53,280 nt of DNA from Bacteroidota bacterium (GTDB lineage Bacteria; Bacteroidota; Bacteroidia; Chitinophagales; Chitinophagaceae): NCBI GenBank assembly GCA_003175695.1, contig PSRA01000257.1:1-53280 (forward strand). Direction: 5' to 3'. The position numbers and the translations under genes were made by a program. Positions 11,500-33,564 of the stretch are shown here, one piece after another. The notes below the pieces were generated by a model. It ran no database searches and was not told where the DNA came from. It saw only the letters and a program-made list of their open reading frames with translations. Every line of letters starts with the position of its first letter. Within the stretch, counting starts at the first letter, position 1.

Positions 11500-14331
11500 T
11501 CAAAAGTTCAAAGCCAGTTTTCCAAACAACCTCACGCCATTAAATCCCATTTGCACAGAATCCCACGGCCCGCCAGATTCATTATCAAATGCCCAGTTTC
11601 TTGCCAATGGATTGACACCCAGGTCCGGGTGAACATTGAAAATATTATCCGCTCCTACGAAAAGCGTGACGTTCTTGTTGAATTTGTATGATGCATAGAC
11701 ATCAGTTGTCATTTTACCATTATAATTGAAATTCTCAGGTACAAGAACGTTAGGGTCGGCATCCGTTGGTACCATTGGATTTATACCAGTTTGATTCGGA
11801 TTGTCTGCGGTTGCATCGCCAAAACCCAGCAACACTATTTTTCCGAAATAAGTGAGATGGGCACCGAGGCCAACCTTTGCCATATTGTATTCCAAACCGA
11901 GCGAGAATTTTGAGTTGGGAGCCGAAGCCACCAGGAACGCCTCTTCTCTATCACTGAAGAATGTTTTTTGATGAAGTTTCGTGTCATTCAAAATATCCGG
12001 GATATGAATTTCATCGACAGTCATGTTTTGAATATTTCCGGCAAGCAGGAATTTGACGCTTTGGTTGCCCCATCTCTTCGTATAATCAATTACAATGTCG
12101 ATGCCTTTATTGGTTGTACTGACCGCGTTGGCAAAAAACTGAGCCGTTGACACACCAATCGCTTTCAGCTTGTCCGTGAACTCAGCGGGCAATGTATTGT
12201 CGTCTGCACTAAATAAACCCGACAGCACTATTCTGTTTTTTACTTTGACAATGTATCCATCGACCGTTACGATCAAGCCCGGCGTCGGTTTCCATGAGAA
12301 TCCAAGACTGCCATTGACTGACGTCTCCTGTTTTAATTCCGGAATACCCGCTGCTTTTGTTATCGGATCATTGTTGTTTGCGATGCGGGATTGAATGAGT
12401 ACACCGCCACTGAAAGAAGTGAGTGTGTTACTAAAATTGATCTGCTGCAAAGAAGGCGCTCTATATCCAGTGCTGACGGAACCCCGGATATTGAAATCTT
12501 CTGAAATCTTATAGCGTGTAGCCAGTTTGTACGTACTCACAAATCCAAAATCAGAATAATTTTCAATTCTAACAGCACCATCCAGTAGCCAGTTCCTGGT
12601 CACATTCAATTCGGCATCCACATAGGCTGCAAAATTGGACCTGTTTGCATTCACGACGTCATTTGGACTGAACCCCGGGAAGCCCTGAGCTCCTGGGGCA
12701 GGCGTCCGCAAAGAATCAGAAGTAAGGTTAGGATAAACCATAGGTGTCGTGCTGTAACTGCCATATGAACCGAATTCGCCTTTATAGATCGTATATCTCT
12801 CAAAACGAAATTCTGCTCCCATTCCGAGGTTCAAACCCGATGCCACGGAGCTATATGATTTGCTAAAGTCGAGATTGAGCGTTTCCTGGAGAAAATTGAA
12901 ACCACCGTCGTCAAAATGATTAGGAGAAGAAAACCCAATGTTAGAAGCATTGAAAGTCTTGTCGCCAAAATAATTAAAGTCATTTTTGCCCAACGTGTTG
13001 CTCAGGTCCCAATTCCATCCATTGTTGGTAACTCCCTTGAATCCGAATGCAACTGAAGCATCCAGGATGCGCGTTTGGATGTGTGGGTTATAATAAATTT
13101 CTCCGTCCCCCGCAGTCCGCATAATATCGGGCCGGTAGAGCAAATGCCCATTTTGGTCTACGGGAAAACGTTCCGGCTTGGCGCTCCAGTTTCTCGTATA
13201 GGCATAGGCGTCAGAATATTTATAGTTGTATCCGCCGAAAGAATAAAAGGTCGTTTTGGTGCCGGGAGCGACAGGCAGCTCCATATTATACATAATGCCT
13301 GCGGCAGCCAAAGATGCATCACCAAATGCACGACGGCTGGTATTTAGAGGCAAGGCGTCAGGGTGACTGAAATCATTGTCTGCAACCTGCCTGAACGTTT
13401 TACCCTGACTAAGCAGATCGACAGCAACATTTACATAGCCACCTTGTTTACCGATGGCAAATCCGTTATCAGCAGAAAGTGCAAACGTGTTTCCATCGAG
13501 AGGTTGGCTGTAATAATATTGATTACCGGCCCTTGCCTGGTATGCGTTGAATTTCTTATCATAATATCCGGCCCAACCTGCATTTACATTCCAGTGATTG
13601 ATATCTTTTTTTAGAATGATGTTGATGACGCCAGCGATCGCATCAGACCCGTATTGTGCCGATGCCCCGTCACGAAGAATTTCGATACGATCAACCGCAG
13701 CTTCAGGAAATGCGTTCAGATCAACCCCCGAATTTCCTCTTCCCCGGGTCCCAAAAAGAGTAACGAATGCTGTTTGATGCCTTCTTTTGCCGTTGATCAT
13801 TACAAGCGTTTGATCGGGACCTAATCCGCGTAACGTACCCAAATCAATATGGTCCGCGCCATCTGCGCCACTTTGTTTATTGTAATTGAAGGAAGGTGCT
13901 GCATAATTCAGAACCGAAGTCAGGTCCATCCTGGCTGTAGGAAGTCCAATCTGGTTCACTTTTAACACATCAACCGGAACGGCAGTTTCAGTTTTTGCTC
14001 GCCCGGCAGTACGCGTTCCTACAAATACAATTTCTGACAACTCGGATGTGTTCGGGTTGAGAAAAAGTGACAATTTTGAAAGATCGCCCACCGTCACTTC
14101 CATCGTTTCATAACTGACAAAACTTACCTGAATCGTTTCGCCATCTGAAGCCGTAATCTGGAAACTGCCATCATTATTGGTAACGGTGCCGGAACTCTTT
14201 CCTTTGATTTTTACCGATACACCTGAGAGTGGTTGCTTGGTTCGGGAATCTTTTACTGTACCGGTTATGGTTTTTTGGCCGAATGCCAGGTAGGTGCTGA
14301 ACAATAGCAGTAAGGTCAGGTAATTTTTCAT
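11500..14331 (-). CDS. TonB-dependent outer-membrane receptor with CarboxypepD_reg-like domain
   Basis: A 943-residue outer-membrane active transporter powered by TonB. A signal peptide (1-18, ending AFGQ) precedes a carboxypeptidase-regulatory-like domain (about 20-100), then a plug domain (about 115-245, with the typical GASAQYGSDAIAGVINI segment) and a 22-strand barrel ending in a terminal aromatic, LALNF. No SusD-like lipoprotein is adjacent, so it is not a classical SusCD glycan system. The substrate may be a siderophore, cofactor or peptide and cannot be told from sequence. It is followed on the same strand by the LytS/LytTR pair after 236 bp. Confidence 0.93.
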   Translation of the reverse strand: MKNYLTLLLLFSTYLAFGQKTITGTVKDSRTKQPLSGVSVKIKGKSSGTVTNNDGSFQITASDGETIQVSFVSYETMEVTVGDLSKLSLFLNPNTSELSEIVFVGTRTAGRAKTETAVPVDVLKVNQIGLPTARMDLTSVLNYAAPSFNYNKQSGADGADHIDLGTLRGLGPDQTLVMINGKRRHQTAFVTLFGTRGRGNSGVDLNAFPEAAVDRIEILRDGASAQYGSDAIAGVINIILKKDINHWNVNAGWAGYYDKKFNAYQARAGNQYYYSQPLDGNTFALSADNGFAIGKQGGYVNVAVDLLSQGKTFRQVADNDFSHPDALPLNTSRRAFGDASLAAAGIMYNMELPVAPGTKTTFYSFGGYNYKYSDAYAYTRNWSAKPERFPVDQNGHLLYRPDIMRTAGDGEIYYNPHIQTRILDASVAFGFKGVTNNGWNWDLSNTLGKNDFNYFGDKTFNASNIGFSSPNHFDDGGFNFLQETLNLDFSKSYSSVASGLNLGMGAEFRFERYTIYKGEFGSYGSYSTTPMVYPNLTSDSLRTPAPGAQGFPGFSPNDVVNANRSNFAAYVDAELNVTRNWLLDGAVRIENYSDFGFVSTYKLATRYKISEDFNIRGSVSTGYRAPSLQQINFSNTLTSFSGGVLIQSRIANNNDPITKAAGIPELKQETSVNGSLGFSWKPTPGLIVTVDGYIVKVKNRIVLSGLFSADDNTLPAEFTDKLKAIGVSTAQFFANAVSTTNKGIDIVIDYTKRWGNQSVKFLLAGNIQNMTVDEIHIPDILNDTKLHQKTFFSDREEAFLVASAPNSKFSLGLEYNMAKVGLGAHLTYFGKIVLLGFGDATADNPNQTGINPMVPTDADPNVLVPENFNYNGKMTTDVYASYKFNKNVTLFVGADNIFNVHPDLGVNPLARNWAFDNESGGPWDSVQMGFNGVRLFGKLALNF

Positions 14332-23872: not shown

Positions 23873-25183
23873 ATGAAAACAAAAACGATCAAGCGGGACA
23901 AGGTAAACATTATCACGCTGGGCTGTAGTAAAAACATGGTTGACAGTGAAGTGCTGAGTGCACAATTGTCGGCTAATGATATTGATGTCATCCATGAAAA
24001 TAAAAAGACAGATCACAATATAGTCGTGGTGAATACTTGTGGTTTTATCGACAAAGCGAAAGAAGAGTCAGTTGACACGATTCTTCAACAAGTAGATTTG
24101 AAAAAACGTGGAAAGCTAGACAAAGTATATGTTACGGGTTGTTTAAGTCACCGTTACCGCGATGATTTGGAAAAAGAAATTCCCGAAGTGGATGCCTGGT
24201 TTGGGACGATGGAATTGCCTTTACTATTAAAGCGATTTGAAGCAGACTATAAAGCGGAACTGGTTGGAGAACGTATGCTTGCAACCCCCAGCCATTATGC
24301 ATATTTGAAGATATCGGAGGGATGTAACCGCACTTGTGCTTTTTGTGCGATACCATTGATGAGAGGCCAGCACGTCAGCAAATCCATGGATGATTTAGTG
24401 AAAGAGGCAGAAGGCCTGGTGAAGAAAGGTGTGAAGGAAGTCATGCTGATCGCACAGGAATTAACCTATTATGGCCTGGATCTTTATAAGAAGCGAATGT
24501 TGGGTGATCTTCTACATCGATTAGCAGATGTAAAAGGATTGGAATGGATCCGTTTGCACTATGCTTATCCGTCGAAATTTCCGCTCGAAGTGATCGATGT
24601 GATGAAGGAAAGGGAAAATATTTGCAACTATCTCGATATGCCTTTGCAGCATGCAAGTGACAAAATGTTGAAGGCGATGCGTCGCCAGATAACGCGTTCA
24701 GAAATGACTGACCTTATTCATGGCATTCGCGAAAAAATTCCAGGTATTTGTTTGCGCACAACGTTAATTGCCGGTTTTCCAGGCGAAACAGAAGAAGACG
24801 TTGATGAATTGAAGGATTTTTTGCAGCAGCATCGATTCGATCGGGTTGGTATTTTTACCTATTCACATGAAGAAGGAACCAGTGCTCATGATTTGCCAGA
24901 CGATGTACCTTCTGAAGAAAAGGAGAGGCGGGCGCAGGATGTGATGGAGTTGCAACAGGAGATATCCTATGAAAAGAACCAGGAAAAAGTCGGAAAATTA
25001 TTTAAGACGATCATAGATAAAAAAGAAGCCGGCAGATGGCTGGGAAGGACTGAATTTGATTCCGTGGAAGTAGACAATGAAGTGATTATTCATTCCGAAA
25101 AGAAATTGCAGATCGGGGAATTTGCACAGGTTCGCATCACCAAGGCATATGATTTTGACATAGAAGGTGTGGTTGAAGACTGA
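23873..25183 (+). CDS. rimO: Ribosomal protein S12 methylthiotransferase RimO
   Basis: A radical-SAM enzyme that methylthiolates an aspartate of ribosomal protein S12. Of its 436 residues, the N-terminal MTTase domain binds one Fe-S cluster through Cys18, Cys56 and Cys90. The radical-SAM core uses Cys151, Cys155 and Cys158 (CNRTCAFC), and a TRAM domain ends the protein. An open frame to a TTG at 23819 exists, but the ATG at 23873 gives the usual N-terminus. In many Bacteroidota rimO follows ftsY directly; here about 3.4 kb lies between them. Confidence 0.95.
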   Translation: MKTKTIKRDKVNIITLGCSKNMVDSEVLSAQLSANDIDVIHENKKTDHNIVVVNTCGFIDKAKEESVDTILQQVDLKKRGKLDKVYVTGCLSHRYRDDLEKEIPEVDAWFGTMELPLLLKRFEADYKAELVGERMLATPSHYAYLKISEGCNRTCAFCAIPLMRGQHVSKSMDDLVKEAEGLVKKGVKEVMLIAQELTYYGLDLYKKRMLGDLLHRLADVKGLEWIRLHYAYPSKFPLEVIDVMKERENICNYLDMPLQHASDKMLKAMRRQITRSEMTDLIHGIREKIPGICLRTTLIAGFPGETEEDVDELKDFLQQHRFDRVGIFTYSHEEGTSAHDLPDDVPSEEKERRAQDVMELQQEISYEKNQEKVGKLFKTIIDKKEAGRWLGRTEFDSVEVDNEVIIHSEKKLQIGEFAQVRITKAYDFDIEGVVED

Positions 25184-25254: not shown

Positions 25255-26169
25255 ATGGCAGTCCAATGGAAGGGCGTATTCCCGGCCCTGGTTACACCTT
25301 TTACTCCGGATGACAGATTAGATATACGCGTGTTTGGCGAAAACCTGTCTCAACAAATCTCGGCAGGTATCGATGGAATTATTATTGGAGGTAGCCTCGG
25401 TGAGGCCAGCACCCTGACACAGGATGAAAAAGAATCCCTGGTCAAATTTTCAGTTCAAAAAATTAAAGGTAAGCTTCCGGTGATCCTGAACATTGCTGAA
25501 GGTTCCACCCATGAGGCCATTGAACAGGCATCGCTGGCCCAGGCGTGGGGAGCGCAGGGTTTGATGTTATTGCCGCCTATGCGATATAAGAGCGACGACC
25601 GTGAAACAGTTCAATTTTTTCGCGATGTCTCAGCTTCCACAGACTTGCCTATTCTTTTGTACAATAATCCCATTGATTATAAGATTGAAATTACACTCGA
25701 CATGTTTGCCTCCTTGACCGATTGTGTCAATATCCAGGCGGTTAAGGAGTCTACCCGCGACGTGACGAATGTAACCAGAATGATTAATCGATTTGGCGAA
25801 AGGTATAAACTGCTATGCGGTGTGGATACAATCATTATGGAAGAGCTTAGTCTGGGCGCAGTGGGATGGGTGGCGGGACTGGTCAATGCTTTTCCCCGTG
25901 AAACCGTTGCCATTTATCGGTTAATGATCGCCGGTAGGACAACGGAGGCCCGGGAGATTTTCCGGTGGTTTCTGCCAGTGCTGGAATTGGACATTCATCC
26001 TAAATTGGTTCAATATATAAAGTTCGCTTCATCCATGACCGGCATGGGAAGTGAAACGGTGCGAAAGCCAAGACTGACGTTAGAGGGCGAAGAAAGAAAA
26101 AAGATTGAGGGGATCGTGAAACAGGCCATTGCGACCCGGCCTGACTTGCCGGATTACCTTGCTTTATAA
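25255..26169 (+). CDS. Dihydrodipicolinate-synthase-family lyase, candidate pyrroline-4-hydroxy-2-carboxylate deaminase
   Basis: A 304-residue class I aldolase-fold enzyme. The Schiff-base Lys164 (QAVKEST) and Tyr136 (LLYNNP) are present; the usual GTTGE loop is GGSLGE (45-50). DHDPS-family members include the deaminase that turns 1-pyrroline-4-hydroxy-2-carboxylate into 2-oxoglutarate semialdehyde in hydroxyproline catabolism, and 2-keto-3-deoxy-arabonate dehydratase, which makes the same product. The downstream semialdehyde dehydrogenase and hydroxyproline epimerase favour the first. Dedicated lysine biosynthesis is less likely. The ATG at 25255 was chosen because the earlier in-frame start adds an atypical 19 residues. 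Confidence 0.85.
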   Translation: MAVQWKGVFPALVTPFTPDDRLDIRVFGENLSQQISAGIDGIIIGGSLGEASTLTQDEKESLVKFSVQKIKGKLPVILNIAEGSTHEAIEQASLAQAWGAQGLMLLPPMRYKSDDRETVQFFRDVSASTDLPILLYNNPIDYKIEITLDMFASLTDCVNIQAVKESTRDVTNVTRMINRFGERYKLLCGVDTIIMEELSLGAVGWVAGLVNAFPRETVAIYRLMIAGRTTEAREIFRWFLPVLELDIHPKLVQYIKFASSMTGMGSETVRKPRLTLEGEERKKIEGIVKQAIATRPDLPDYLAL

Positions 26170-26351
26170 AGATAACGAGGCCCGGATTTTGCCGATATAA
26201 AGTTGACCCTTGACAGCCGTACAATTCAAAGGAGCTGAGTTAATGTAGGTAGACCAAATTAACGGCCGATAACTGACATCTGTCAACTAAATTGCGTTTA
26301 TCCGCCAAATGGGAGATCGGCATCATAAATTGTCACCCAAAAAGAATTCTT

Positions 26352-27845
26352 ATGTTCAAGGATACATCGAAAGAAGAAATTGATCTCATAGCGAAACAGG
26401 CTTGGCAGGCGTTTCTTCAATACAGCAAAATGCCTTTGAAAAAAAGAGCAGAATTTATGCGAATGGCGGCATCGGAATTAGAAGCATTAGGGGACGATCT
26501 GATCGTCCTCGCTCAATCTGAGACCAACTTGCCTGAAGCCAGACTCAAGAACGAAAGAGCACGCACCATATTCCAATTGCAAAGTTATGCGGATGCTTGT
26601 GAAAAAGGTGATTGGATGGAAATAAGGATTGACACCTCCATTCCTGACAGGAATCCACCCAAACCTGATCTTCGAAAGATGCTCGTTCCGCTTGGACCTG
26701 TCGTGGTGTATGGGGCCAGCACTTTTCCTTTCGCCTATTCTACCGCCGGGGGAGATACGGCCTGTGCTTTTGCAGCGGGCTGTCCCGTCATTGTAAAAGC
26801 ACATCCGGCGCATGCAGGCACTTCAACAGCGGTCGCCAAAGCATTGACCAAGGCAGCAGAGAAGTTAAATATGCCAAAAGGAATTTTTTCCCATGTTTAT
26901 GGAGAAGGATTTGAAGTGGGTAAGGCGTTGGTTACGCATCCGCTTGTAAAAGCGGTGGGATTTACTGGTTCTTTTGGAGGGGGTAAAGCCTTATTTGATT
27001 GGGCGAATCAGCGAAAGGAGCCCATACCCGTATTCTCCGAAATGGGTAGTATCAATCCGGTTTTCTTGCTACCAGGAAAACTGAAGGAATCCGCGGCTGA
27101 CATAGCTAAAAGCTATGCGGGCTCTATCACGCTTGGTGTTGGACAATTTTGTACCAACCCGGGATTAATAATAGGTCTGGCAGGAGAGGACCTGGATTTT
27201 TTTATTTCAATACTGGGCACAGAAATCAGGAAGGCAGCACCGGGCACCATGCTACACCCGGGGATATCAAAAGCGTATATCGATAAACGTAAGGTTGCTT
27301 TGGAGCAGTCCGGTGTTGAAACTATAGCTGTGAGTGAATCAGAACCGAAGGAAAACCAGGGGACACCGACGATTAGTTCTGCCAGCGGTCAGGCCTTTTT
27401 GAATAATCCTGTTCTTCACCAGGAAGTCTTCGGCCCATATTCCCTGGTGATCCGTTGTAAAGATATCCAGGAAATGCAATCGGTGACTGAACATACAGAA
27501 GGACAACTTACCTGCACGCTCATGGCCACAGAGAACGATATTCTCGAAAACGAAAGCCTGGTAGATGCTGTGCGCAATATATGTGGAAGGCTCATCCTGA
27601 ACGGCGTACCAACAGGTGTCGAGGTGTGCCTCAGTATGCAGCACGGCGGCCCTTTTCCAGCAAGTACTGATAGCCGTTATACATCAGTCGGTGCTGATGG
27701 AATCAGGAGATTTGCACGTCCTCTTTGTTACCAGAATTGGAAAGATGAATTGTTGCCCGAGGAATTGAAAGATGGAAATCCTCTCGAGATGTGGCGGACT
27801 GTCAACAACGAACTAACAAAAAATAAAGTAACCAGTAGCCGGTAG
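26352..27845 (+). CDS. 2-oxoglutarate (alpha-ketoglutarate) semialdehyde dehydrogenase-type ALDH
   Basis: A 497-residue NAD(P)-dependent aldehyde dehydrogenase related to 2,5-dioxovalerate dehydrogenases. Features include FGASTFPFAYSTAGGDTACAF-like nucleotide-site residues (about 121-140), GFTGSFGGGKALFD, Glu230 in SEMGSINP and catalytic Cys267 in GQFCTNPG. It would oxidise 2-oxoglutarate semialdehyde to 2-oxoglutarate, the last step shared by the hydroxyproline and oxidative pentose routes. ATG at 26352 chosen; the frame upstream to a TTG at 26292 is unlikely. It lies between the DHDPS-family lyase (182 bp gap) and the hydroxyproline epimerase (57 bp gap). Confidence 0.9.
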   Translation: MFKDTSKEEIDLIAKQAWQAFLQYSKMPLKKRAEFMRMAASELEALGDDLIVLAQSETNLPEARLKNERARTIFQLQSYADACEKGDWMEIRIDTSIPDRNPPKPDLRKMLVPLGPVVVYGASTFPFAYSTAGGDTACAFAAGCPVIVKAHPAHAGTSTAVAKALTKAAEKLNMPKGIFSHVYGEGFEVGKALVTHPLVKAVGFTGSFGGGKALFDWANQRKEPIPVFSEMGSINPVFLLPGKLKESAADIAKSYAGSITLGVGQFCTNPGLIIGLAGEDLDFFISILGTEIRKAAPGTMLHPGISKAYIDKRKVALEQSGVETIAVSESEPKENQGTPTISSASGQAFLNNPVLHQEVFGPYSLVIRCKDIQEMQSVTEHTEGQLTCTLMATENDILENESLVDAVRNICGRLILNGVPTGVEVCLSMQHGGPFPASTDSRYTSVGADGIRRFARPLCYQNWKDELLPEELKDGNPLEMWRTVNNELTKNKVTSSR

Positions 27846-27902
27846 AAATAAATTTCTAACAGGATCTGTTCTCATAAAACCATTTTTGTACCAGCCCCAG
27901 TC

Positions 27903-28922
27903 ATGAAGAGTGTTTTTGCCTGTATTGATGCACATACCTGTGGCAACCCGGTCCGCCTGGTTGTGCAGGGTGCGCCGGCACTCATTGGCCGCGATATGTC
28001 TGAAAAGCGGCAACATTTCATCAAGGAATTTGATTGGATACGCAGAGGATTGATGTTTGAACCGCGTGGACATGATATGATGAGCGGAAGTATGCTTTAC
28101 CGCCCACACGATCCTTCCAATGATATCGCCGTATTATTCATTGAAACCAGTGGTTGCCTGCCCATGTGTGGACATGGTACCATTGGCACGATAACCATTG
28201 CGATTGAAGAAGGATTGATTAAACCACAAACTCCGGGAGCCGTGCGGATGGAAGCCCCCGCAGGGCTGATCAATGTGGAATATGAATCGAAAATTGATTC
28301 CCTCTCGGGCAAAGAGAAAGTGAAATCAGTCAAACTCACCAATGTTGCTTCCTACCTGGCGATGGAAAATATCGAGATCGATGTCCCGGTTCTCGGAAAA
28401 TTATGCGTGGATATTTCCTATGGGGGCAATTTTTATGCGATCATCGATCAGCAGGAAAACTTCCCGGGGCTCGAACATTTTACTGCGGATCAGTTGATAG
28501 GTTGGAGCCGGATCATTAGAACCAGACTCAATGAGAAATACAAGATCGTTCATCCCGAAAATCCTACGATACATGGCTGTTCCCATGTGCTGTGGGCGGG
28601 AAAACCTCTGGACAGGGGTTCAACTGCACGGAATGCAGTTTTTTATGGAGATAAGGCGATTGACAGGTCGCCCTGCGGCACCGGAACGTCAGCCAGGATG
28701 GCTCAATGGTATGCTAAAGGAAAATTAAAAGAAGGTGAGATATTTGTTCATGAAAGTATAATCGGCTCAAAATTTATCGGGAAATTGGAAAAGGTTGTGC
28801 GGGTAGGAGACCGGACTGCAATTGTTCCCAGTATTACCGGATGGGCCAGGATTTATGGAAGGAATATTATTACCATTGACCCTGACGATGACCCTTATGC
28901 GTACGGGTTCCAAGTGATGTAA
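27903..28922 (+). CDS. 4-hydroxyproline 2-epimerase
   Basis: A 339-residue proline-racemase-family enzyme that interconverts trans-4-hydroxy-L-proline and cis-4-hydroxy-D-proline, the entry step of bacterial hydroxyproline use. Both catalytic cysteines are present, Cys89 in PMCGHGTIG and Cys258 in SPCGTGTSAR. This separates it from trans-3-hydroxyproline dehydratases, which lack the first Cys. Context (lyase and semialdehyde dehydrogenase upstream) supports hydroxyproline over proline as substrate. It is cytoplasmic and is followed after 38 bp by a secreted glycosidase on the same strand. Confidence 0.93.
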   Translation: MKSVFACIDAHTCGNPVRLVVQGAPALIGRDMSEKRQHFIKEFDWIRRGLMFEPRGHDMMSGSMLYRPHDPSNDIAVLFIETSGCLPMCGHGTIGTITIAIEEGLIKPQTPGAVRMEAPAGLINVEYESKIDSLSGKEKVKSVKLTNVASYLAMENIEIDVPVLGKLCVDISYGGNFYAIIDQQENFPGLEHFTADQLIGWSRIIRTRLNEKYKIVHPENPTIHGCSHVLWAGKPLDRGSTARNAVFYGDKAIDRSPCGTGTSARMAQWYAKGKLKEGEIFVHESIIGSKFIGKLEKVVRVGDRTAIVPSITGWARIYGRNIITIDPDDDPYAYGFQVM

Positions 28923-28960
28923 GAGTCTGAAATTTATAATAAATTCCACGCGAGAGATCC

Positions 28961-30943
28961 ATGCCTGAAAAATTTGCTATGTATACCAAAAATCAAATAA
29001 TCCTCGGCCTTTGCCTCGCAGCTTCGCCATCAATTTTTGCTCAGCAACCTTTTTCAGAATTAACACCCGTCGGATTTGATCAGGTACAGATCAATGATGC
29101 ATTTTGGAAACCTAAAATGGATAAGGTTTCTACAGTAACATTAAATGCCTGCATTAACTACACTGAATTTAAAACTGCCCGGATCAGGAATTTCGAAAAC
29201 GCCGCAAAAAAAACCGGTCATCATGAAGGAATATATTATGACGATTCCGATGTTTATAAAGCTTTGGAAGCAATAGCTTACTCTCTTCAAAACCGTCGTG
29301 ATACAGTATTAGAGAAAAAAGCAGACGAATGGATAGAAAAAATTGAGGCGGCTCAGATGCCGGATGGTTACCTGGACACCTATTTTCAGCTTCGTGATAT
29401 TAGCAAGCGTTGGACAGACATTGAAAAACATGAAGACTATAATGCCGGCCATTTGATTGAAGCTGCCGTCGCATATTACCATGCAACCGGCAAAGATCGA
29501 TTGCTACAGGTAGCAACACGTCTTGCCAATCATATAGATTCGACTTTTCGTTTGGCAGGAAAACATTGGGTGAGCGGGCATGAAGAAATTGAATTGGCTC
29601 TGATAAAACTCTATCATCTAACGGGCAGTGACCGTTATTATAAACTAGCCAATTGGTACCTTGAACAACGTGGTCACGGATATGGGTACAGCCCGATGTG
29701 GACAAGCAAAGAATCACATGAATATTACCAGGATGATGTGCCTGTCAAAGAAGCAAGCAATATAAAAGGTCATGCAGTTCGGGCTATGTATTTATACACG
29801 GGAACAGCCGATGTGGCCGCTATCAGTCGTGATACGGGCTATCTTAACGCCATGGAAAGAGTTTGGCAGGACGTTGTATATCGGAATATGTACCTCACAG
29901 GTGGCATAGGGTCCTCAGGAAACAACGAGGGCTTCACTCGAGACTACGATCTGCCTAACGTAGATGCCTACTGTGAAACTTGTGCTTCAGTTGGCATGGT
30001 ATTCTGGAACCAAAGAATGAATTTATTGACTGGTGAAAGTAAATACATTGATGTGTTGGAAAGGACACTCTATAACGGTGCATTGTCTGGTCTGGCACTA
30101 AATGGCGATCATTTCTTTTACGGCAATCCACTTGCATCACCTGGGAAATATGAAAGAAGTGAGTGGTTTGGCACAGCTTGTTGTCCTGCAAATATTGCCC
30201 GACTCATTGCTTCTTTGGGCAACTACATATACAACAAGTCAAATGATGGAATTTGGGTCAATCTATTTATTGGCAGCAAAACAACTATACCGATCCATCA
30301 ATCGAAAATGACTGTTGAACAAGAGACCAACTATCCCTGGGATGGTGAGGTAAAAATAAAATTGTCACCAGACAAGAAAACGAAAATGGGTCTCCATGTT
30401 CGGATTCCGGGGTGGGTAGAAGGCCAGCCTGTGCCTGGTGATTTATATCGTTTCGAACATAGCGAGGCGAGCCCTTTTTATGTTCTAGTTAATGGCGCAA
30501 AAGTTGATTTCAAAGTAGATAAGGGATACATGGTGATTGAACGAGAATGGCAAAAAGGTGATATTCTCACAATTAACTTTCCTGTGGAAGTAAAAAAAAT
30601 TTTGGCTAAGGATTCTGTTAAGGAAGATCTTGACAGAATTGCTGTTCAGCGTGGTCCATTAGTATATTGCTTTGAGCAAACAGATAACAAGGGTAAGGTT
30701 TGGAACATGATGTTACCTCCAAACACCGAATTCAGCACGAAATTTGAAAAGGACCTGTTGGGTGGCGTTACTGTTATTCATTGCAGTTTACCCGCGATAG
30801 AAATCAATGCTGACGGGACTACTCTTAGCACGCAAACCAAGACAGTTACAGCAATTCCATATTTTGCCTGGGCTAATCGTGAACCTGCTGCCATGCAGGT
30901 ATGGTTGCCCGTGAGGATAAAAGATGTGAAACTGAATTACTAA
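28961..30943 (+). CDS. Secreted GH127 beta-L-arabinofuranosidase (HypBA1-like)
   Basis: A 660-residue glycoside hydrolase (DUF1680/GH127) with a signal peptide ending near SIFAQ (about residue 28). The active-site layout of Bifidobacterium HypBA1 is preserved with the same spacing: acid/base Glu323, zinc-site Glu339 and Cys341 in YCETC, and Cys407-Cys408 in ACCPAN, where Cys407 is the expected nucleophile. HypBA1 releases L-arabinose from beta-arabinofuranosides attached to hydroxyproline in extensin. The location just after a hydroxyproline epimerase fits that substrate. Alternative starts (ATG at 28961 or 28979) both give a signal peptide. Exact linkage specificity is unproven. Confidence 0.93.
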   Translation: MPEKFAMYTKNQIILGLCLAASPSIFAQQPFSELTPVGFDQVQINDAFWKPKMDKVSTVTLNACINYTEFKTARIRNFENAAKKTGHHEGIYYDDSDVYKALEAIAYSLQNRRDTVLEKKADEWIEKIEAAQMPDGYLDTYFQLRDISKRWTDIEKHEDYNAGHLIEAAVAYYHATGKDRLLQVATRLANHIDSTFRLAGKHWVSGHEEIELALIKLYHLTGSDRYYKLANWYLEQRGHGYGYSPMWTSKESHEYYQDDVPVKEASNIKGHAVRAMYLYTGTADVAAISRDTGYLNAMERVWQDVVYRNMYLTGGIGSSGNNEGFTRDYDLPNVDAYCETCASVGMVFWNQRMNLLTGESKYIDVLERTLYNGALSGLALNGDHFFYGNPLASPGKYERSEWFGTACCPANIARLIASLGNYIYNKSNDGIWVNLFIGSKTTIPIHQSKMTVEQETNYPWDGEVKIKLSPDKKTKMGLHVRIPGWVEGQPVPGDLYRFEHSEASPFYVLVNGAKVDFKVDKGYMVIEREWQKGDILTINFPVEVKKILAKDSVKEDLDRIAVQRGPLVYCFEQTDNKGKVWNMMLPPNTEFSTKFEKDLLGGVTVIHCSLPAIEINADGTTLSTQTKTVTAIPYFAWANREPAAMQVWLPVRIKDVKLNY

Positions 30944-30992
30944 GAGGCCTCACTTATGAATCCGGAATTTAACGCAGGAAGTATTTATTAAT

Positions 30993-31000
30993 TAATTTTG
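30993..31000 (+). promoter_or_regulatory. Promoter-like box before the SMP-30-like gene
   Basis: TAATTTTG matches TAnnTTTG, with a TTTA about 21 bp upstream. It lies 50 bp before the chosen ATG. If real, the SMP-30-like gene can be expressed apart from the cluster. Confidence 0.35.
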
Positions 31001-31050
31001 TTTTGACCGAACAAGAAAATCTATTCTTTGTTAACAGATCAAATTGTCTT

Positions 31051-31893
31051 ATGAAAAGGATTTTTTTGAATTTATTCGTATTGATAACCGGGGGACTGAT
31101 TGTGGGCTTACCATCAATAGCCCAACAACATCAATTGGTGAAGAAATGGCAGACTGATTCTGTTCTGAAGGTTCCGGAATCTGTTTATTACGATGCTGCC
31201 AATAAAGTACTCTACACTTCCAATATAGACGGCGCACCCGATGGCAAAGACGGAAAAGGATCTATCGGAAAAATTGGATTGGATGGGAAAATTATCCAGG
31301 TGGATTGGGTCACTGGTTTGAATGCTCCGAAAGGTCTGGGAAAATTCAATAATTTGCTTTACGCGGCCGACCTTGATGAAGTAGCAGTCATTGACCTCAA
31401 TGCTGGAAAGATCGTCCAGCGGATTCCTGTAGAGGGCGCCGCCTTTCTCAATGATATTACGGTGGATAGTAAAGGTGTGGTGTATGTTTCGGATACCAAA
31501 ACAGGAAAGGTTCACAGGATAGAAAATGGCAATGTAAGTACTTATGCCACCGGTATCGAAGGCGCAAATGGTGTATTGGCGGATGGAACCGATCTTTATG
31601 TTTTAGGAAATGGAAATCTCTGGAAAATTTCGAAGGATAAGCAGCGGACCAAAGTCGCTTCAGGCATGGACGCGAGCACAGATGGGATAGAAAAAGTCAA
31701 AGACAACGAATTTGTCGTTTCCAGCTGGAATGGTGTCATATATTATGTGAAATCGGATGGAAGTAAACAGCAGTTGTTAGATACAAGGCCACAAAAAATA
31801 AATTCGGCTGATATAGGATATGACGCAGTAAATCGAATTGTTTACGTGCCAACCTTTTTCAGGAATTCAGTGGCTGCTTATGAATTAAAATAG
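31051..31893 (+). CDS. Secreted SMP-30/gluconolactonase-fold protein
   Basis: A 280-residue six-bladed beta-propeller with a signal peptide (1-25, ending SIAQQ). The metal-ligand positions of SMP-30 lactonases can be seen: Glu43 (VPESV), Asn134 (FLND), Asn173 (GANGVL) and Asp211 (STDG). Family members hydrolyse aldonolactones, including arabinonolactone, but many exported Bacteroidota homologues are uncharacterised. Its position after the arabinofuranosidase makes a sugar-lactone substrate attractive but not shown. ATG at 31051 was preferred over the in-frame TTG at 31003, which would spoil the signal peptide. Confidence 0.8.
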   Translation: MKRIFLNLFVLITGGLIVGLPSIAQQHQLVKKWQTDSVLKVPESVYYDAANKVLYTSNIDGAPDGKDGKGSIGKIGLDGKIIQVDWVTGLNAPKGLGKFNNLLYAADLDEVAVIDLNAGKIVQRIPVEGAAFLNDITVDSKGVVYVSDTKTGKVHRIENGNVSTYATGIEGANGVLADGTDLYVLGNGNLWKISKDKQRTKVASGMDASTDGIEKVKDNEFVVSSWNGVIYYVKSDGSKQQLLDTRPQKINSADIGYDAVNRIVYVPTFFRNSVAAYELK

Positions 31894-31959: not shown

Positions 31960-33564
31960 ATGAATTGTATTGCGAATTTTTTACCTTACCAACATACAGG
32001 ATATTTTTCCAGATTAATTGTAGATTATCTTGAGGACGCAGCTTCCCTGCGTCCTTTTTATTCGCACCGTCCTACGCTAGAGGGGATTTTATCGGCTATC
32101 CATGATCGCCGGCAGTACCCGACCAACAGAAAGGTTTTGGTTAAAGAACTAAAAAATCAATATAGAGGATTTGAACTAAATGAAATTACGAGCAGGAATC
32201 TTGACCAGCTGCTCGATGACAATTGTTTTACGGTGACTACGGCACATCAGCCAGCGATATTCACTGGGCCTTTATATTTTATTTATAAGATTCTTCATAC
32301 GATTAAACTTGCGGATTTTCTTGCTAAAGAAATTCCGGACAACAAATTTGTTCCTGTATTTTTTATGGGGAGTGAAGATGCTGACCTGCAGGAATTGGGC
32401 CAAATTTACCTGGATCATGAAAAGATCACCTGGGATGCCCGACAATCAGGCGCAGTCGGAAGAATGAAGCCAAAGGAGTTGGATCCGATTTTTAGTCGGA
32501 TAGAGGGTGAATATTCTGTGCAGCCTTTTGGCCGTGAACTGCTTGATCTGTTGAAACGATGTTACCTGGAAAGTGACAGCATTCAGACTGCCACTTTTAA
32601 ATTAGTTCATTCTTTATTTGAAAATTACGGGTTGATCATCCTGATTCCTGACAATGCCAATTTCAAAAAATTGATGTTGCCAGTATTTGAAGATGACTTA
32701 TTTAACCACAAACCTTCACTGCTTGTAGGCAAAACCATTCATGATCTTTCAGCAGAATATGAAATTCAGGCAAATCCTCGCGATATTAATTTGTTTTATC
32801 TTAAAGGTGATATTCGCGAACGGATTGCTATTGAAGAAGGAACTTATCATGTAGTCGGTACTGATATTCATTTTTCAGAGGAAGAAATGAGAAAAGAGTT
32901 GAAAGAGTATCCCGAACGTTTTAGTCCAAATGTTATTCTGCGGGGATTATTCCAGGAAACCATCCTGCCCAATATTGCTTTCCTGGGTGGTGGTAGCGAG
33001 ATTGGATATTGGTTGGAATTCAAAAATATGTTTGGACATTACCAGGTCCCGTATCCGGTGCAGATTATGCGCAATTCATTTCTGATCATTGAAAAGCGAT
33101 GGCGTGATAAGTTGGAAAAGGCAAGGATTGCGATGGATGATATTTTTAAATCAGAAGAAGATCTTGTTGGTGAACTGGTAAAAAAAGAGTCAAGGCATCA
33201 ATTAAATCTTGAAAAAGAGATTGAAGATGCCAATGCTTACTATGAAAATTTGAAGAGAATATCGCTTCCCATAGATCCTACCTTAACACAATATGTAGAT
33301 GCGCTGAAAACTAAGGCGGTCAAGCCCATCGTGGATCTTGAAAAAAAGTTACTGAAGGCTGAAAAAAGAAAATTCGAAGATCAGCGCATGCATATTCATA
33401 GTATTAAGTCGGCGCTTTTTCCCATGGACAATCTCCAGGAAAGAATTGAAAATTTCATGCCTTACTATGCCGAATGGGGCAGGGAGTTCATTAACATGAT
33501 ATACCAGCATTCACTTGCACTCGAACAGCAATTCGTAGTGTTGGAGGAAGTTAATGCTAGCTAA
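31960..33564 (+). CDS. bshC: Bacillithiol biosynthesis cysteine-adding enzyme BshC
   Basis: Adds cysteine to glucosaminyl-malate in the last step of bacillithiol synthesis. The 534-residue protein begins MNCIANFLPYQHTGYFS and has the Rossmann-type core with TTAHQPAIFTGPLYFIYK and FFMGSEDADLQE, the usual BshC landmarks, followed by a long coiled-coil segment (about 390-500). The ATG at 31960 is preferred to a TTG at 31924. bshA and bshB are not in the window. A BstA-like bacillithiol transferase is encoded at 43627-44154, consistent with this thiol being used. Confidence 0.95.
   Translation: MNCIANFLPYQHTGYFSRLIVDYLEDAASLRPFYSHRPTLEGILSAIHDRRQYPTNRKVLVKELKNQYRGFELNEITSRNLDQLLDDNCFTVTTAHQPAIFTGPLYFIYKILHTIKLADFLAKEIPDNKFVPVFFMGSEDADLQELGQIYLDHEKITWDARQSGAVGRMKPKELDPIFSRIEGEYSVQPFGRELLDLLKRCYLESDSIQTATFKLVHSLFENYGLIILIPDNANFKKLMLPVFEDDLFNHKPSLLVGKTIHDLSAEYEIQANPRDINLFYLKGDIRERIAIEEGTYHVVGTDIHFSEEEMRKELKEYPERFSPNVILRGLFQETILPNIAFLGGGSEIGYWLEFKNMFGHYQVPYPVQIMRNSFLIIEKRWRDKLEKARIAMDDIFKSEEDLVGELVKKESRHQLNLEKEIEDANAYYENLKRISLPIDPTLTQYVDALKTKAVKPIVDLEKKLLKAEKRKFEDQRMHIHSIKSALFPMDNLQERIENFMPYYAEWGREFINMIYQHSLALEQQFVVLEEVNAS

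Follow-up and report, generated by a model that had tools for sequence, protein, structure and literature searches.

Within a 53,280-nt stretch of DNA from a bacterium of the Chitinophagaceae (the whole stretch, contig PSRA01000257.1 of assembly GCA_003175695.1, is called the window here), five genes on the positive strand fill positions 25255-31893 between the housekeeping genes rimO and bshC. Three are predicted hydroxyproline catabolic genes, one encodes a GH127 beta-L-arabinofuranosidase and one a beta-propeller protein. This cluster is probably, with a likelihood of about two in three, a pared-down example of a locus type that recurs in Bacteroidota and is directed at arabinosylated hydroxyproline glycoproteins. 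Counting for this are the co-occurrence of its two halves in related genomes, the involvement of two GH127 lineages and of GH146, the recurrence of the linkage on the epimerase tree, the richer gene content of related loci, and the oxidase and arabinose genes found elsewhere in the same genome. An earlier interpretation made from the letters of the window alone (the sequence-only reading) had described five same-strand genes at this place, and all five are present; gene starts were picked by inspection.

Hydroxyproline arabinosides are a regular component of plant cell-wall proteins and are also carried by some plant peptide hormones. If the proposal is true, a locus that uses both the sugar and the imino acid half would explain how some Bacteroidota recycle these proteins and could serve as a marker by which genomes with the trait are recognised. 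The GH127 clade of the window, DUF885 and DUF5695 would then be candidate enzymes for which a substrate can be clearly hypothesised in strains of Pedobacter and Chitinophaga that are in culture.

Linkage of the epimerase with GH127 and GH146 genes

Eighty Bacteroidota epimerase loci were compared, each together with flanks of up to 10 kb. They are the 80 most similar to the window epimerase among 579 relatives; the sample is not random and includes some near-copies. In 21 of the 80 loci a PF07944-type gene (GH127 or GH146) stands no more than 10 kb from the epimerase, with 27 such genes altogether, whereas uniform placement would give 0.96 loci and 0.97 genes (Poisson-binomial tail 8e-23, kinship ignored). 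The linked genes comprise 11 GH127 and 16 GH146, the latter in 15 loci and thus the commonest partner, GH146 identity resting on the best solved match of one member (5opj, 468 bits) and on clustering. All 11 GH127 genes are downstream of the epimerase and on its strand. They follow it directly in loci L021, L049, L050, L083 and L091, with gaps between the open reading frames (ORFs) of 220, 4, 331, 60 and 21 nt, respectively.

PF07944 matches are widespread in these genomes (320 matches in 72 of the 80, fragments included). Proline dehydrogenase, with 90 matches in 79 of the 80 genomes, served as a control. None of the 90 lies within 10 kb of a PF07944 gene among the matches listed (300 of 320), in which the closest pair has a start-to-start distance of 11.7 kb (G073:C117). 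The epimerase linkage differs from this control with a Fisher p of 2.7e-8. The epimerase tree has 81 rows, 22 of them linked when the window is counted; 14 changes are required to explain the linkage label on it, and well-supported branches force at least seven of these. The linked GH127 genes come from two lineages, with six rows each when the window is counted, and GH146 is additional to these. The sequence-only reading had proposed looking for GH127 genes within about 10 kb of epimerases in other Bacteroidota, and such co-occurrence is found, well above expectation and recurrently on the tree.

Gene content of related loci

The gene content of the richer loci was assigned in part by clustering with a scanned member. 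Locus L021 has the window order plus the oxidase, running rimO, DHDPS-family gene, aldehyde dehydrogenase, epimerase, GH127, oxidase, with a piece of bshC behind it at the contig end. In Ilyomonas limi (L050) DUF885, oxidase, SusC, SusD, AraC, DHDPS-family, epimerase, GH127, GH51-type, aminopeptidase P-type and TonB receptor genes occur together. The Pinibacter aurantiacus locus (L029) holds a piece of the oxidase, SusC, SusD, AraC, DHDPS-family, aldehyde dehydrogenase, epimerase, GH27-type, permease, DUF5695 and GH51-type genes, and that of Pedobacter sp. Leaf170 (L043) a DUF5695 piece, SusC, SusD, M1, DHDPS-family, aldehyde dehydrogenase, epimerase, oxidase, AraC, DUF885, permease, dipeptidyl peptidase IV-type and GH43 genes.

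Across the sample, GH51-type genes are present in L022, L029, L050 (by clustering) and L067, a GH27-type gene (alpha-galactosidase) in L029, GH43 in L043, and SusC/SusD pairs in L029, L043 and L050. Dipeptidyl peptidase IV-type genes are found in L022, L043, L061 and L074, aminopeptidase P-type genes in L050, L071 and L092, and an amino-acid permease in 13 of the 80 loci. Arabinose genes (ribulokinase, AraD-like aldolase, isomerase) are near the hydroxyproline cluster in L022 (16220-20992), accompanied by an AraR-like NUDIX regulator, and in L066 (16077-20996), accompanied by an SSF symporter; kinase and aldolase are in view in L024. Altogether 26 of the 80 loci have one or more genes linked to arabinose or glycoproteins, namely the above 21 plus L022, L024, L029, L043 and L066, a hand count for which representatives were scanned with Pfam and which may miss others.

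Two DUF families recur. DUF885 proteins, perhaps a peptidase of the pathway, are encoded in 21 of the 80 loci (e.g. L036:12267-13964). DUF5695 matches occur in seven of 35 epimerase-bearing genomes hand-chosen from the 80; five are full-length (>1290 bits) and all five lie, by coordinates, within 10 kb of the epimerase, and the two in G004 and G014 are weak. A sequence search of the PDB returned no match for DUF5695, its AlphaFold model is poor (predicted local distance difference test, pLDDT, 44.7), and we regard it as a candidate dedicated enzyme of the arabinose-hydroxyproline locus type.

Taken in its fullest form, the locus type would completely dismantle plant arabinosylated hydroxyproline glycoproteins by means of GH127, GH146, GH51, GH43, alpha-galactosidase, prolyl peptidases, SusC/SusD, the hydroxyproline and arabinose pathways, and DUF5695 as a dedicated enzyme. 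This broader claim may or may not hold, and we favour neither outcome. No single locus examined holds all of these parts, and the window has a stripped-down form.

Predicted hydroxyproline catabolic genes

The DHDPS-family gene is a cluster member in 54 and the aldehyde dehydrogenase in 53 of the 80 epimerase loci. Because of the company these two genes keep, they are assigned putative roles in hydroxyproline degradation. For the aldehyde dehydrogenase there are matches to 39 NCBIfam models, all under the respective cut-off among the 25 listed, and its best solved relatives are 3v4c (436 bits) and 1eyy (429 bits). The epimerase is predicted to be a 4-hydroxyproline 2-epimerase from its NCBIfam equivalog and its two catalytic cysteines. 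Proline racemase was considered as its identity and rejected, the respective model (NF010576) scoring 302 bits, under its cut-off of 556.

Of the 80 related loci, 69 have a member of an oxidase cluster no more than 10 kb from the epimerase; the cluster is broad, with identities down to 36%. The sole oxidase candidate of the window's own genome (G000:C220:6291-7541, locus L102) is on contig C220, apart from the epimerase. Its identity is 43% to the L053 oxidase and reaches 65% within the oxidase cluster, with the L096 member, and it is likely, to judge from these comparisons, a D-hydroxyproline oxidase ortholog. By family, then, the genome appears to encode epimerase, D-hydroxyproline oxidase, deaminase and 2-oxoglutarate-semialdehyde dehydrogenase, three in the window and the likely oxidase on C220; a trans-4-hydroxyproline catabolic cluster with all four genes linked is not present in the window. 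Of the cytoplasmic hydroxyproline set named in the sequence-only reading, the epimerase, DHDPS-family lyase and dehydrogenase families are confirmed by the family scans, while the oxidase step falls outside the window, on another contig.

The GH127 enzyme

The catalytic, middle and C-terminal domains of the GH127 protein (PF07944, PF20736 and PF20737) score 350, 78 and 89 bits, each above its cut-off, and the protein is probably exported. Five residues, counted from the ORF start at 28961, align with HypBA1 Glu322, Glu338, Cys340, Cys417 and Cys418, and the position of HypBA1 Cys415 holds Thr. Which of the cysteines and glutamates bind zinc is in part our assumption. By alignment and fold match, the enzyme is predicted to possess the Cys nucleophile, Glu acid/base and (Cys)3-Glu zinc site given for GH127 in the available text of PMC8106489. 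The five residues are invariant in 16 of 16 aligned GH127 sequences and therefore mark the catalytic class, not the substrate. The statement in the sequence-only reading that every HypBA1 active-site residue is in place holds for these five equivalents; since they are family-wide, they do not name the substrate.

Among solved relatives the sequence scores are 530 bits for 6ex6 (BT3674), 492 for 4qjy (Ara127N), 357 for 3wkw (HypBA1) and 258 for 5mqo (BT_1003). The AlphaFold model (pLDDT 82.5) gives TM scores over the query of 0.87 for BT3674, 0.85 for Ara127N, 0.81-0.83 for HypBA1 and 0.76 for BT_1003. BT3674 and Geobacillus Ara127N are thus the nearest solved relatives, ahead of HypBA1. On a GH127 tree of 53 rows one clade, of 24 rows, includes the window gene, and both the BT3674 clade and the pair of HypBA1 and Ara127N (support 99/96) stand apart from it; the window gene is not a member of the HypBA1 subgroup, HypBA1 itself being a long branch.

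Two irregular PF07944 genes were seen along the way. At L122:8866-11219 a GH146-type gene in a GH51-GH127-GH146-arabinose row is split into two ORFs (172 and 599 aa), by frameshift or assembly error, and at G047:C2:947401-950832 one open frame of 1584 aa carries two PF07944 catalytic domains.

Features and surroundings of the cluster

The features are collected in Table 1. RimO, DHDPS-family, aldehyde dehydrogenase, epimerase and BshC genes stand together in the same orientation in 9 of the 80 loci by tblastn. By ORF clustering the set is found in 8 of 80; L021 is missing there, as the contig ends within its bshC, and L039, which has another arrangement, is added. Solved relatives of the propeller in the PDB are Cj1041c, the designed Pizza protein and PknD propellers. 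Homologs occur in the epimerase loci L052, L053, L067 and L098, standing before bshC in the window and in L052, L053 and L098, with no bshC in view in L067. The propeller gene probably adjoins the cluster and does not belong to it. The sequence-only reading had counted this gene into the system, which is not borne out by its weak PF01731 match, the only one, and its lack of an evident role. A Bacteroidota promoter pattern matches the window once, away from the cluster, with 1.13 matches expected by chance.

Table 1. Positions of the cluster genes, their flanks and DUF5695 genes of related loci (window coordinates unless a locus is given)
Feature	Position	Strand	Evidence
rimO, ribosomal protein S12 methylthiotransferase, housekeeping flank	23873..25183	+	TIGR01125 481 bits (cut-off 357)
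DHDPS-family lyase	25255..26169	+	PF00701 201 bits; motifs YNNP and VKEST
Aldehyde dehydrogenase, predicted 2-oxoglutarate-semialdehyde dehydrogenase	26352..27845	+	PF00171 134 bits; GQFCT and FSEMG motifs
4-Hydroxyproline 2-epimerase (predicted)	27903..28922	+	PF05544 (Pro_racemase); NF010578 568 bits (cut-off 376); Cys89 and Cys258
GH127 beta-L-arabinofuranosidase, probably secreted	28979..30943	+	PF07944/PF20736/PF20737; signal-peptide-like N-terminus by inspection only
GH127 catalytic/zinc residues Glu323, Glu339, Cys341, Cys407, Cys408	29927..30184	+	Alignment to HypBA1
NHL/SMP-30-like beta-propeller	31051..31893	+	Weak PF01731 match only; signal-peptide-like N-terminus by inspection
bshC, bacillithiol biosynthesis, housekeeping flank	31960..33564	+	TIGR03998 390 bits (cut-off 266)
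DUF5695	L147-L151; L029:15068-17803; L061:94-2895; L071:2-1447		

Proposed route and alternative explanations

From the computed gene content, families, linkage and recurrence we infer a route of GH127 export, arabinose release and conversion of hydroxyproline to 2-oxoglutarate. The GH127 enzyme, whose class is read from sequence and model, would be exported and would cut beta-L-arabinofuranose off hydroxyproline arabinosides, for instance of extensin. The arabinose could then enter the L-arabinose row (FGGY kinase, isomerase, SSF symporter) that is present on contig C238 of the same genome. The genome also has GH51-type genes on contigs C224 and C48, and C48 carries, within a GH43/GH39/GH9 row, one GH146-like gene that is 34.5% identical to the GH146 of L083. 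Peptide cleavage and uptake would be supplied by genes outside the window. Hydroxyproline would be epimerised by the epimerase and oxidised by the putative D-hydroxyproline oxidase from the other contig, steps to which the families point. The DHDPS-family enzyme would deaminate the product and the aldehyde dehydrogenase would oxidise it to 2-oxoglutarate, again as suggested by family and along the route given in the available text of PMC4113996. Extensin is a plausible substrate, and other arabinosylated hydroxyproline proteins or peptides fit equally.

Several observations weigh against this proposal. No GH127 or GH146 gene is in the fetched stretch of 59 of the 80 epimerase loci (18 of the 59 shortened by contig ends), so that the linkage is common, not the rule. 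The window contig was unmatched by a search with the oxidase of a related locus and by a DAO family search. The window ORFs scanned with Pfam include neither a SusC/SusD pair nor a permease for amino acids nor a regulator of the AraC type; a single TonB receptor is at 11500-14331, far from the cluster, with no SusD among the scanned ORFs, and the window does not hold the SusC/SusD pair with glycosidases that makes a polysaccharide utilization locus. Eighteen sampled rows of the window GH127 clade lie elsewhere, with no epimerase within about 7 kb and with varied surroundings; since background rows of the tree were hand-picked for their position outside epimerase loci, this share carries no meaning, and one background row, L132, is the linked gene of L069 itself. 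GH146 is next door to the clade-mates L115 and L122, one of which also has arabinose genes. As some unlinked clade-mates have GH146, GH51 or arabinose genes nearby, the window GH127 may serve arabinans too. The genome assembly is itself incomplete (78.76%, 275 contigs). The pairing of arabinoside removal with hydroxyproline catabolism put forward in the sequence-only reading is supported in part: the co-occurrence speaks in favour, and the points to be corrected are the incomplete route in the window, the residues that do not diagnose the substrate and the fifth gene.

The same gaps in the window (oxidase, SusC/SusD, permease), the clade-mates in other settings and the 59 loci without GH127/GH146 in reach would also fit an ordinary cluster for the breakdown of hydroxyproline (from collagen, from plants or free) that acquired by chance a GH127 gene directed at side chains of pectin or at arabinan, with no substrate in common. 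Such a chance acquisition is unlikely, given 21 of 80 loci against 0.96 expected, the two GH families, the two GH127 lineages, the recurrence on the tree, and the five loci in which GH127 directly follows the epimerase. Rather doubtful, too, is a cluster for plant-protein hydroxyproline in general whose GH127 acts on arabinogalactan-protein glycans and not on extensin-type arabinosides, a reading that overlaps with the favoured one, so that the odds do not sum to one. It draws on the occurrence of beta-arabinofuranose in arabinogalactan proteins, arabinan and rhamnogalacturonan II as well as extensin (available text of PMC10850190), and on the GH27- and GH43-type genes of some loci, which could act on arabinogalactan proteins. 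It is opposed by the standing of GH146 as the commonest partner and by the substrate Ara-Hyp, from which XeHypBA1 mainly frees arabinose and which HypBA1 also accepts, according to the available text of PMC6085000. That the GH127 protein is an aceric acid hydrolase, or another rhamnogalacturonan II enzyme like BT1003, is highly improbable. The aceric acid hydrolase model (NF049879) is its sole NCBIfam match at the threshold used, but the score of 427 bits is far under the cut-off of 950, for which reason this function was rejected; the other linked GH127 proteins score 431-488 (8 of 11 scanned), and BT_1003 ranks below the other solved GH127 enzymes in both sequence and fold.

Comparison with known systems

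The enzyme families are known. The pairing of an arabinosidase with hydroxyproline catabolism in one locus is apparently new, since searches of an open-access library turned up no description of it, in agreement with the sequence-only reading, which was not aware of one as a single system. The nearest likeness on the sugar side is hypBA1-hypBA2 of Bifidobacterium longum (GH127, GH121, ABC transporter), where GH127 is used on arabinosides of hydroxyproline-rich glycoproteins as is proposed here (available text of PMC8106489 and PMC5928203). There, however, GH127 is intracellular, the sugar is used, and hydroxyproline catabolism does not figure in the text available, whereas the window GH127 seems to be exported and stands linked with genes for hydroxyproline use. 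In Xanthomonas euvesicatoria, XeHypAA, XeHypBA2 and XeHypBA1 similarly trim Ara4-Hyp to arabinose, and a broken prolyl oligopeptidase gene is near the arabinoside genes; the enzyme set is a different one, and 'epimerase' and 'catabol' are absent from the available main text (PMC6085000). For Latescibacteria GH127 has likewise been proposed to act on extensin arabinose, for the sugar only and with no link to hydroxyproline catabolism in the sections available (PMC4454575).

On the hydroxyproline side, the epimerase/oxidase/DHDPS/aldehyde dehydrogenase clusters of the proline racemase superfamily neighbourhood network follow the same four-step route to 2-oxoglutarate, but 'glycosid', 'arabin' and 'Bacteroidetes' do not appear in the available main text (PMC4113996). 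The Colwellia collagen utilization cluster, with M9 collagenase and proline/hydroxyproline catabolism, resembles the proposed locus type in keeping polymer-degrading and hydroxyproline-catabolic halves together; it differs in that its polymer is animal collagen, its first step is made by a peptidase, and arabinosidases are not mentioned in the text available (PMC7883544). The known bacterial systems compared draw either on the sugar alone or on collagen hydroxyproline, and the locus type proposed here would use both halves of an arabinosylated plant glycoprotein.

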